In this document: piece by piece, positions 3,324 through 20,083 of the stretch | Position numbering within the stretch: position 1 is the first letter of the stretch | Layout: each line of letters starts with the position of its first letter | IMG/VR virus record: IMGVR_UViG_3300035698_005624 | Location: 1 to 21,240 of that record | Strand: one strand, 5' to 3' | DNA from: a virus | Length of the DNA stretch: 21,240 nucleotides | Program-made: the position numbers and the translations under genes | The notes under the pieces: model-generated | What the model was told of the DNA's origin: nothing | Seen by the model: the letters and a program-made list of their open reading frames with translations, nothing else | Database searches by the model: none

Positions 3324-3330
3324 TCAAACC

Positions 3331-3468
3331 AAGCGACTCGCAGTGAACAGAACGTAATAATGACTTATGTGGAGACACTCACACGGACCCAAAAAATGCT
3401 AAAGAATCCAAAAGATGTAGGTGAAACTAATAAGTCGGGACGGTCCCGGCGTGCGAGTCGTTTTTTTT
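3331..3468 (+). ncRNA. Structured RNA element 1 with terminator-like end
   Basis: A 9-bp perfect inverted repeat, CGACTCGCA (3334-3342) and TGCGAGTCG (3452-3460), closes a region of about 109 bases and is followed directly by eight Ts (3461-3468). Adding AAG/TTT extends the stem to about 12 bp. Inside it are a second nested pairing, GACTTAT (3362-3368) with ATAAGTC (3430-3436), and a small hairpin CGGGA-CGG-TCCCG (3436-3448; C3436 can serve only one of the two). The nesting suggests a folded RNA ending in its own Rho-independent terminator rather than a plain terminator. It lies downstream of the recombination operon. No coding frame fits it. The RNA class is unknown. Confidence 0.45.
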
Positions 3469-3493
3469 CTACCCCCGAATTTTCCATGATTGG

Positions 3494-3544
3494 CAGGCGC
3501 GGAATAGCTGACTCGGGACTATCCCGTACCGCGCCTGTTTTTTT
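3494..3544 (+). terminator. Structured terminator (RNA element 2)
   Basis: A 9-bp perfect stem CAGGCGCGG (3494-3502) / CCGCGCCTG (3529-3537) is followed by seven Ts (3538-3544). Within it, close to the 3' strand, is an inner hairpin CGGGA-CTA-TCCCG (3514-3526), nearly the same as the one in the preceding element. This is a good Rho-independent terminator sitting just before the DUF2829 gene, so transcription from the recombination operon probably attenuates or ends here. Confidence 0.7.
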
Positions 3545-3565
3545 GACAAGTAAAACCTATTTTTA

Positions 3566-3572
3566 TAAGGAG
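3566..3572 (+). promoter_or_regulatory. Ribosome binding site of the DUF2829 gene
   Basis: TAAGGAG, 7 bases before the ATG at 3580. It fixes the start of the Tad2-like gene to just after the structured terminator, so the whole gene lies between two T-tract elements. Confidence 0.75.
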
Positions 3573-3579
3573 TATTGCT

Positions 3580-4020
3580 ATGGATGATTATGTTGGACAA
3601 AAATTGATTGCTGCACACAGAGCCTCGAAGGATGGACTTCCCGGTTACGACGTAACTTATGGTGGATATCTTTCGTGGTCACCAGAGGAAGCCTTTGAGG
3701 AAGCCTACCAGGACGTTCGCCAAGGCATGAATTTTGGAGGGGCCATCTTCATGCTGAAGCGAGGCAAGAAGGTCGCGCGTAAGGGCTGGAACGGCAAGGA
3801 CATGTGGATTGCATTGATGGATGGCATGTCGTTGCCTCCGTTCAATTCTCAAGAGCCGGGGAAAAAGGTGAACGACCGAACAGCGGCGTTTATCGGTGAA
3901 GATACACCTTTGGTCACACTGCCCTATATTGCCACATGGACCGCTGATGGAAAGTGGCTTCCTGGTTGGCTGGCAAGTCAGACTGATATGCTGGCGGATG
4001 ATTGGGTTGTCGTTGATTGA
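3580..4020 (+). CDS. DUF2829/Tad2-like protein with Gp49-like N-terminal domain
   Basis: A 146-residue protein in two parts. Residues about 1-46, ending in GYLSWSPEEAFEEAY, resemble the small phage Gp49/Sf6-gp66 family (motif SWSPxxxFExAY). Residues about 49-146 match DUF2829: NFGGAIFMLKRGKKVARKGW (51-70), a central PFNS...TLPYIATWTADG, and the closing WLASQTDMLADDWVVV. DUF2829 includes Tad2, a phage protein shown to sequester the cyclic ADP-ribose-type signal of Thoeris immunity. Anti-Thoeris activity here is inferred from family only, as DUF2829 proteins are widespread and few have been tested. The gene stands alone between structured, T-tract-ended elements, which fits an accessory (moron-like) cassette in the early region. 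Confidence 0.85.
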   Translation: MDDYVGQKLIAAHRASKDGLPGYDVTYGGYLSWSPEEAFEEAYQDVRQGMNFGGAIFMLKRGKKVARKGWNGKDMWIALMDGMSLPPFNSQEPGKKVNDRTAAFIGEDTPLVTLPYIATWTADGKWLPGWLASQTDMLADDWVVVD

Positions 4021-4031
4021 CAAGTGAATAC

Positions 4032-4177
4032 GGTCCCGTGGCGGAATGCTTAACGAGACGCTACATACGGATTGCGGCAACATAGCATAAAAAAGGGTAT
4101 AGCGGTTGAAATACCGATGATGAGCCAATTGACGATGAAGAATGCAGGTATCGAATCCTGCCGGGGCTATTTTTTTG
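4032..4177 (+). ncRNA. tRNA-like structured RNA (element 3) ending in T-tract
   Basis: GGTCCCG (4032-4038) can pair over 7 bp with CGGGGCT (4162-4168), allowing G-T pairs, and is followed by A and seven Ts. Directly inside the 3' strand is a T-arm-like hairpin GCAGG-TATCGAAT-CCTGC (4144-4161), whose loop resembles TTCGAAT with one extra base. After the 5' strand comes TG and a D-arm-like GCG...CGC (4041-4061) whose start, TGGCGGAAT, looks like a class II (Leu-type) tRNA. The middle, 4062-4143, is far too long, holds a hairpin GGTAT/ATACC (4096-4115), and shows no good anticodon stem. It is therefore tRNA-shaped but not a recognisable functional tRNA. Confidence 0.45.
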
Positions 4178-4189
4178 ACAACCTAACCC

Positions 4190-6499: not shown

Positions 6500-6877
6500 A
6501 TGCCAGCCCTGAATTTTTATGAAGAATTTGCGGATAAAGTTTTTGCGGGTATCAAGAATCAGACGATACGAAAGACCCGAAAGCATCCGATCAAAAGGGG
6601 CGATACGCTCTATCTTTATACTGGGCAGCGGACGAAGCAATGCCGGTTGTTAAAAACGGTGGTTTGTGTGCGAACATTTGAAGTTAAGTTTACAAAACAA
6701 TGGTATTACTGGCGGGAGTGCGGGTGGCTTAAAAGGTGGCGAAAATTTGAAATCTACGAATTGGAGTATTTGGCACAGAAAGACGGCTTTGGTACCGACT
6801 TGGACATGATTCACTGGTTTCAAAAACACCACGGCCTCCCCTTTGAAGGACAGGTGATACGGTGGGGAGATGAATAA
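6500..6877 (+). CDS. ASCH-domain protein
   Basis: A 125-residue protein with the layout of phage ASCH (PUA-like) domain proteins: KNQTIRKTRKHPIKRGDTLY (about 20-39), where the TIR-K and GD turn are characteristic, then YTGQRTKQCR, a Trp/Tyr-rich strand region, and the C-terminal DGFGTDLDMIHWFQKHHGLP followed by VIRW. ASCH domains bind RNA or modified nucleotides and some act as deacetylases or ribonucleases, but the role of phage copies is not settled. A GGAAAGGAAG ribosome binding site precedes the ATG. Next gene follows after 2 bases. Confidence 0.85.
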   Translation: MPALNFYEEFADKVFAGIKNQTIRKTRKHPIKRGDTLYLYTGQRTKQCRLLKTVVCVRTFEVKFTKQWYYWRECGWLKRWRKFEIYELEYLAQKDGFGTDLDMIHWFQKHHGLPFEGQVIRWGDE

Positions 6878-7612: not shown

Positions 7613-8011
7613 GTGACAAAAACTAATATCCACTTTTCAAGTATGCGGATTAACCAGCAAACACCGAGGGAGGTCTATCAAATCCTTGATGCAGAATTTA
7701 GGTTCGACTTCGATCCATGCCCCAAATATCCAAAATTTAACGGATTGCAAACAGGATGGGGGCAATCGAGTTTTGTCAATCCTCCATACGGCAGAGAAAT
7801 CGGGAAGTGGCTAAAAAAAGGATATGAGGAATTCCTTAAAGGGAAAACGGTGGTGTTTTTGATTCCGAGCCGAACAGATACTCGATGGTGGCATGACTAT
7901 TGTATGAAGGCAACAGAAATACGCTACATCGAAGGGCGGTTGAAATTCGGTGGGGCAAAATACAACGCCTCATTTCCTAGTGCTATTGTGATATTTAAGC
8001 AAGAAGACTGA
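7613..8011 (+). CDS. dam: Phage-type DNA N6-adenine methyltransferase (Dam family)
   Basis: A 132-residue methyltransferase of the compact phage Dam type (PF05869). The N-terminal QTPREVYQILDAEFRFDFDP is characteristic of this family, and the catalytic motif IV is NPPYG at residues 56-60, which flips and methylates adenine. SAM is the donor. The GTG start at 7613 follows GGGGGAGGAGG. There is no companion endonuclease nearby, so it is an orphan, most likely protecting phage DNA from host restriction or marking it for replication or packaging. Target sequence cannot be read from the protein. Confidence 0.88.
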   Translation: MTKTNIHFSSMRINQQTPREVYQILDAEFRFDFDPCPKYPKFNGLQTGWGQSSFVNPPYGREIGKWLKKGYEEFLKGKTVVFLIPSRTDTRWWHDYCMKATEIRYIEGRLKFGGAKYNASFPSAIVIFKQED

Positions 8012-19276: not shown

Positions 19277-19315
19277 GGGATCCTGGACAGGGGCGTGTAC
19301 TCTCTGTCCGATCCC
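19277..19315 (+). promoter_or_regulatory. Long hairpin before the glycosyltransferase gene
   Basis: GGGATC-CT-GGACAG (19277-19290) pairs with CTGTCC-GATCCC (19304-19315), 12 bp with a 2-base bulge and a 13-base loop. It lies 18 bases ahead of the glycosyltransferase ribosome binding site and has no T-tract. It could limit transcription or translation of the downstream genes. Confidence 0.5.
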
Positions 19316-19345
19316 CTGTGGTTCTATGTTGCAGGAGATACAAAG

Positions 19346-20083
19346 GTGACTCATTCCCTTGTCAGCGTAATTATTTCCGACTTATTCGAGCGGTATTTGC
19401 CCGAGACTATTATGAATCTGCGCGCAACAGCGGATGGACCGGTGGAGATACTGGTGGAAACCGATGAAGACGGACAGGGAATGCGCCATTGTCTGAACGT
19501 AGCAGCGAACCGGGCAAACGGGGAGTATTTATTCAAAGTAGATGGGCACTGCATTATGTCGCCGCACTGGGATACGTTAATGAAAGAAGTATGCCAGGCT
19601 AACGATATGGTTGTGGCCTGTATCCGAGAGATAGACGATGAGACGTGGACTGTTCGGGATAAGGGTTTTGACTTTGTGACTATCAAGCCCGACTTGAACG
19701 TAGTTAAAACTGATAAGCAGAAATTCAACGGCGAAAAAGTGGCTGAGACTATGGCCTCTATCGGTTGTGCCTGGATGATACATAAAGACAGGTTCAATGA
19801 GCTGGAACAAAACTGGGAAGAGTTGGGTCGGTTAGGTGCTTTGGGTGTAGAGTGGGCTTTGAAGATATGGCTTTCCGGCGGTCGAACGTTGGTTCATAAA
19901 GACGTAATATGTGGTCATTTGTTTCGGTATGGCGGGACAATGAAACCAAACGATCTTATCTTTGCTCGCAAGATTTTGGGTCAACGATTCGCCAATATGC
20001 AAGGTCCGCAACAGATTCACCCGCTGAACTGGTTGGCAGAACGATTTAACAAAAAAACCGAAACAGTAAAGGACGGTGTGTAA
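19346..20083 (+). CDS. Glycosyltransferase, GT-A fold, pp-GalNAc-transferase-like
   Basis: A 245-residue enzyme that should transfer a sugar from a nucleotide sugar. GTG 19346 is chosen because AGGAG lies 8 bases upstream; an in-frame GTG at 19295 sits inside the hairpin. The first strand is SLVSVIISDLFERYL. The metal-binding DxH is KVDGHC (66-68), and SIGCAWMIHKDRF resembles the GGLFAIDKxxF segment. GVEWALKIWLSGG (Glu169) followed by CGHLFRY (His191) parallels the WGGENxEL...IWxCGG...VGHxFR order of polypeptide GalNAc-transferases, in which His completes the metal site. No lectin domain and no signal or membrane segment, so it acts in the cytoplasm. Placed among virion genes, it may decorate phage structural proteins. 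Confidence 0.82.
   Translation: MTHSLVSVIISDLFERYLPETIMNLRATADGPVEILVETDEDGQGMRHCLNVAANRANGEYLFKVDGHCIMSPHWDTLMKEVCQANDMVVACIREIDDETWTVRDKGFDFVTIKPDLNVVKTDKQKFNGEKVAETMASIGCAWMIHKDRFNELEQNWEELGRLGALGVEWALKIWLSGGRTLVHKDVICGHLFRYGGTMKPNDLIFARKILGQRFANMQGPQQIHPLNWLAERFNKKTETVKDGV

Follow-up and report, generated by a model that had tools for sequence, protein, structure and literature searches.

A phage protein joining a Tad2 domain to a recurrent N-terminal module is a probable counter-defence nucleotide sponge

A 146-residue open reading frame lies at exactly 3580-4020 (+) of the window, by which is meant the whole stretch of 21,240 bases of a virus record that was analysed. Its product joins a C-terminal Tad2 domain to a short N-terminal module with the motif SWSPxxxFExAY, referred to below as SWSP. 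The protein is read, with a probability of about three in four, as a counter-defence nucleotide sponge in which SWSP serves as an accessory module. The analysis gave directly the Tad2 homology and fold, the conservation of the pocket loops, the class of the insertion, the recurrence and swapping of SWSP, and the adjacency of related genes to Acb4 and Acb2 genes.

The window comes from a tailed phage. It encodes an exonuclease, Sak4, DnaB helicase, a DnaD-like loader, RusA, terminase, portal, scaffold and the major head protein, all on the + strand, and its head protein is only about 34% identical to those of phages of Burkholderia, Ochrobactrum and Sinorhizobium. The SWSP-Tad2 gene sits amid early replication and recombination genes, with Sak4 upstream and DnaB downstream, and a Shine-Dalgarno AAGGAG can be read at 3567-3572 (+), 7 nt 5' of the ATG. 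An Acb4 gene is absent from the window, including the places beside the SWSP-Tad2 gene, no Acb2 gene was seen in the window, and NCBIfam and PADLOC scans gave no useful match. Two other genes of the early region encode an ASCH-domain protein (6500-6877, E=1.5e-5) and, at 7613-8011, a short DNA methyltransferase of the Dam type (PHROG 111). A Glycosyltransferase-2-like protein (19295-20083, E=2.1e-4, just below the cut-off) is found between the head genes and a beta-helix tail protein (20076 to the end of the window).

The assignment of residues 50-145 as a Tad2 domain is firmly supported by profile searches and by the predicted structure. This part of the protein matches PF11195 (Tad2-like) over the full profile (1-73) with E=1.7e-23 and 83.4 bits against a cut-off of 25, so that the DUF2829 match proposed in the sequence-only reading is not missing. 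The closest solved relatives of the domain (residues 50-146, 3727-4017, +) by phmmer are SptTad2 (8wjd, 3.8e-18), then HgmTad2/AcrIIA7 (8kbi, E=1.8e-16; 9kzr, 1.3e-14), SPO1 Tad2 and ModTad2. The full-length AlphaFold2 model, built on an alignment of 48 relatives, has a mean pLDDT of 92.0, and all 24 of its Foldseek hits in the PDB at E<=0.001 are Tad2/AcrIIA7 chains, with SptTad2 bound to cGG at the top (8wjd, 7e-9). The same four proteins are recovered by sequence and fold alike. The ligand pocket of Tad2 is built from the beta1-beta2 loop, the beta4-alpha3 loop and helix alpha3 (PMC12043709). The corresponding elements of the window protein are GWNGK, in the beta1-beta2 loop (residues 68-75, 3781-3804, +), and W-ASQTDMLADDW, in the beta4-alpha3 loop and helix alpha3 (PGWLASQTDMLADDW, residues 128-142, 3961-4005, +). 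GWNGK is identical in SPO1, Mod, Hgm and Spt Tad2. Most columns of residues 128-142 are invariant or nearly so among the 48 relatives and are shared with the solved Tad2 proteins. When compared at the level of loops with the four characterised Tad2 proteins, GWNGK and W-ASQTD-LA-DW are identical or conservatively replaced, and a loss of pocket residues, which would have spoken against a Tad2 function, is not seen.

In other Tad2 proteins, cyclic dinucleotides bind at the insertion between beta2 and beta5. In the window protein it is long (residues 81-115, 3820-3924, +). The distance from the Lys of GWNGK to the Trp is 57 residues, as in SptTad2, compared with 63 in HgmTad2 and 45 in SPO1 Tad2 and ModTad2, which puts the window protein in the long-insertion class of the cGG binders SptTad2 and HgmTad2. 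However, the sequence of the insertion, KVNDRT, differs from the Spt and Hgm insertions. It places the protein in a subfamily of 13 rows on the Tad2 tree (support 99/97), which includes members from KVP40, Paenibacillus and Syntrophaceae that have no N-terminal module. Because the insertion is long, it is plausible from the sequence that CBASS cyclic dinucleotides are bound in addition to Thoeris ligands. The ligand is not to be assumed from the family, since SPO1 Tad2 does not bind 3'3'-cGAMP (PMC11722364).

The N-terminal 49 residues (3580-3726, +) are the short form of SWSP. The sequence-only reading had recognized a distinct N-terminal segment with the SWSPxxxFExAY motif and had named it a Gp49/Sf6-gp66 domain. 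The segment and its motif are borne out, the motif being kept in dozens of relatives, but the name is not. Residues 1-49 give no match to PF13876 at E<=10, nor does any of 36 SWSP segments. PF13876 was hit three times in 12 contigs with SWSP-Tad2 genes, each time in a separate gene; in the contigs of these relatives it is a distinct neighbouring gene and never the SWSP segment. In phage N4, gp48 matches PF13876 and gp49 is an SWSP-Tad2 fusion. It was also observed that, in the GenBank numbering of this gene pair (locus L085, 1103-1956), it is gp48 and not gp49 that matches the family called 'N4 Gp49'. The misassigned label probably traces to the Pfam name 'N4 Gp49/Sf6 gp66'. PF13876 has been shown to be the Acb4 family of anti-CBASS sponges (PMC11722364). 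N4 gp48 acts as Acb4 in vivo and is both necessary and sufficient to trigger Panoptes (PMC12657230). PF13876/Acb4 is usually a separate protein from SWSP-Tad2, yet it is often encoded by the adjoining gene.

SWSP is an unnamed and highly conserved module whose predicted fold weakly resembles the chromo/Tudor type. It is conserved in 36-64 relatives, with 11 invariant columns among 36 proteins, and the aromatics Y27, Y30, W33, F39 and Y43 are highly conserved. When it is modelled alone, three strands form a sheet and a helix follows at the C-terminus (strands 9-17, 20-27 and 30-35, helix 36-42; pLDDT 92.7). Pfam has no match to residues 1 to about 49, alone or within the whole protein, and no convincing match, chromo included, to any of the 36 aligned segments; no solved structure for the N-terminus was found by sequence. 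The profile of PHROG 872 spans the SWSP core plus Tad2 (E=9.5e-36). The top 11 Foldseek hits of the SWSP model in the PDB are all chromodomains, but they are weak (E 0.26-2.8). An hhalign comparison with approximate chromodomain sequences gave a probability of 4% and a score of 15.9; 59 of 60 column-permuted controls scored lower and one scored higher (21.8). On a by-eye alignment we take the chromodomain pattern YxVKWKGY...TWEPE to correspond to GYxVxYxDGY..SWSPK in SWSP, which would presumably bring the conserved aromatics near the positions of the chromodomain cage. Kinship with chromodomains is suggestive only, a lead and not homology.

Another theme that emerges is that SWSP is attached to several different partners. 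Among the proteins fetched by similarity to the window gene or to its N-terminus, the distinct architectures are SWSP-Tad2 (208), SWSP-Acb4 (19), SWSP-crAss001_48 (18), SWSP alone (11, defined as fewer than 25 residues after SWSP) and Tad2 alone (24); as the queries held SWSP or Tad2, the sample behind these counts is biased. The SWSP-Tad2 fusion, the commonest architecture among these relatives, is not peculiar to the window phage. Free-standing SWSP proteins have 54-58 residues. The partner domains Acb4, crAss001_48 (PF21825) and Acb2/Tad1 were confirmed with Pfam on examples. The fusion to the Acb2/Tad1 hairpin (PF24729, E=1.5e-13) is found in one unique protein (locus L319, 1501-1986); the C-terminal part of this protein matches 8h2j and 8ixz, solved chains named 'p26' that we take to be Acb2. 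A profile comparison of crAss001_48 with the Acb2 hairpin scored 15.7, against a permuted maximum of 15.5, with a probability of 2%. A single Pararobbsia frame that fuses PF13876 (Acb4) and Tad2 was also seen (locus L242, 1248-2372). Supported branches of the Tad2 tree imply at least 11 gains or losses of SWSP, and near relatives from KVP40 and a Paenibacillus prophage lack it. Since SWSP occurs on Tad2, Acb4, crAss001_48 and Acb2/Tad1, or alone, it looks like a mobile anti-defence module, and its function is put forward by inference only. Acb4 proteins bear unexplained 'additional extensions' (PMC11722364). In the parts available of that paper and of a review on sponges, a module shared by sponges is not named.

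The genes that neighbour SWSP-Tad2 point in a similar direction. A PF13876-type frame is present in the fetched flanks of 44 of 247 SWSP-Tad2 loci, some of which are redundant; in all 44 it is the adjacent gene, on one side or the other and no more than about 270 bases away. The choice of query does not explain this adjacency, because the 247 loci were not chosen for Acb4. At other loci an Acb2 gene adjoins the SWSP-Tad2 gene. In one locus (L313, 845-1928) SWSP-crAss001_48, Tad2 and PF13876 (Acb4) occupy three consecutive frames with ATGA start/stop overlaps, an arrangement suggestive of a sponge operon in which crAss001_48 too would act against defence.

The sequence-only reading had also placed the gene between terminator-like elements, which is borne out only partly. 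Upstream, a stem at 3492-3539 with a T7 tail (3492-3546, +) resembles an intrinsic terminator (-25.7 kcal/mol, z=-4.03), and a second structured element (3326-3468, +) with 17-nt inverted arms at 3326-3342 and 3452-3468 and a T8 tail is moderate (z=-2.05). The downstream T-tailed element (4032-4176, +), with a hairpin at 4144-4161, folds no better than shuffled sequences (z=0.17). The 3326-3468 element holds AAAAAATGCTAAAG, a stretch weakly like SAM-II; its match (16.8 bits against a cut-off of 44, E=2.9) was treated as chance. The downstream element has a tRNA-like layout, in which GGTCCCG (4032-4038) could pair with CGGGGCT (4162-4168), a D-arm-like TGGCGGAAT...GACGCTA lies 3' of the 5' arm, the hairpin at 4144-4161 resembles a T arm before the 3' arm, and T7 follows. 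Rfam and ARAGORN searches of the flanks gave no match for it, and neither they nor the shuffled folds support a tRNA; it may be a decayed tRNA or chance. A sigma-70 promoter was considered and rejected: TTGACA occurs at 3543 and TATAAG just 15 nt further on, overlapping the ribosome-binding site. Direct repeats (CCGCGCCTGTTTTTTTGACAA / CCGGGGCTATTTTTTTGACAA, 86%, and TTGACAAGTRAA) occur at 3529-3554, 4017-4028 and 4161-4181, at the ends of the gene and of the terminators, and may be the borders of a cassette. No relatives of the two flanking genes were found in viral contigs.

How might such a protein work? The gene would be expressed early. By analogy with the solved proteins, the Tad2 domain would assemble, probably as a tetramer, and would bind nucleotide immune signals without degrading them. 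A cADPR-type Thoeris signal made by a TIR protein would occupy the pocket lined by the GWNGK and W-ASQTD loops; CBASS cyclic dinucleotides may be bound as well, given the long insertion. SWSP would be a small beta domain, chromo/Tudor-like, with which phages equip sponges of several unrelated families, most likely as an accessory module for binding or assembly. It could give the sponge a second contact, be it with an effector or enzyme of the host or with another ligand. As the sequence-only reading proposed, it might thereby change the ligand, assembly or partner of the Tad2 part.

The role of SWSP can be read in other ways. It could itself be a separate ligand-binding sponge or inhibitor, so that the protein has two unrelated targets. 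The existence of SWSP alone and with varied C-terminal partners would fit this, as would its conserved aromatics, but structure and Pfam searches found no solved or named relative of SWSP that acts as a sponge or inhibitor, and SWSP is fused far more often than it is alone, in a biased sample of loci; we regard this as possible but doubtful. It is rather unlikely that SWSP is a passive linker that sets only solubility or oligomer geometry. Its frequent gain and loss and its absence from the KVP40 and Paenibacillus prophage proteins are consistent with such a role, whereas the invariant columns and the occurrence of SWSP as a free protein argue against it.

Other functions can likewise be considered for the Tad2 domain. 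HgmTad2 and AcrIIA7 are one protein (8kbi, 8kbk), AcrIIA7 bears a DUF2829 domain (PMC6739104) and the relatives in several phages are annotated as anti-CRISPR, so the window protein might inhibit Cas9 instead of, or besides, sequestering nucleotides. However, the solved AcrIIA7 structures contain cADPR and cGG, genomes with II-A self-targeting rarely hold AcrIIA7 homologues (PMC6739104), and the neighbours of related genes are nucleotide sponges, which makes anti-CRISPR activity very improbable. A role of the domain in the nucleotide metabolism of the phage, outside defence, would suit a gene that lies amid replication genes and whose relatives are mostly annotated as hypothetical. It too has little to recommend it, since the family members characterised so far sequester immune signals (PMC12043709) and the pocket loops are kept.

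Within the reading as a sponge with an accessory module, a more specific proposal can be made only tentatively. SWSP may be a dedicated, mobile, chromo-like aromatic-cage module common to the structurally unrelated sponge families Tad2, Acb4 and, rarely, Acb2, which confers a common second function and marks further, as yet unrecognised sponges, crAss001_48 (PF21825) being the first. If so, that function could be to dock onto an effector or a signalling enzyme, or to conceal the sponge from systems such as Panoptes that sense sponges. One small unnamed domain ties Tad2 and Acb4 to each other and to a third, uncharacterised family, and the genes of these families lie side by side. SWSP therefore offers a simple route to new counter-defence proteins, and it is through this link that a function is predicted for the crAss001_48 proteins.

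Among the known systems close to the window protein are SptTad2 (8wjd) and HgmTad2/AcrIIA7 (8kbi, 8kbk), which have been solved with cGG and with 1',2'-cADPR. They share its long insertion and pocket loops and are about 40-45% identical to it by structural alignment, but they have no SWSP. SPO1 Tad2 (8sme, 8smf), which binds gcADPR, and ModTad2 (9eib), which binds His-ADPR, have the same fold and the same GWNGK and W-S-D loops; they also lack SWSP and have a short insertion (45 versus 57 residues). KVP40.0296 of Vibrio phage KVP40 is a Tad2 of the KVNDRT subfamily, 62% identical to the window protein, and it is a schizotequatrovirus core gene that has been called an AcrIIA7 homologue (PMC12028318). 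It is a Tad2 alone and lies directly 3' of the anti-sigma gene asiA (locus L251, 893-1497), a position that Tad2 also occupies in phage QD01 (L250). Acb4/PF13876 has a different, dsRBD-like fold that is absent from the window protein; some of its members carry SWSP, and it is often the neighbour of SWSP-Tad2. Escherichia phage N4 gp49 (ABK54417.1) has the same order of domains, SWSP then Tad2, but with a long-form SWSP, a diverged Tad2 with a shorter insertion, and an adjoining Acb4 (gp48), which the window lacks. With the Gp49/Sf6-gp66 reading corrected, N4 gp49 can be re-labelled, from its sequence, as a putative sponge of the Tad2 type whose neighbour gp48 is a proven Acb4. The window protein is a new member of a known family, and its architecture was already known within PHROG 872, which is listed as of unknown function, but undescribed. 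What is new here is the wider occurrence of SWSP: joined to Acb4, to crAss001_48 (PF21825) and, once, to the Acb2/Tad1 hairpin, and also as a protein by itself.
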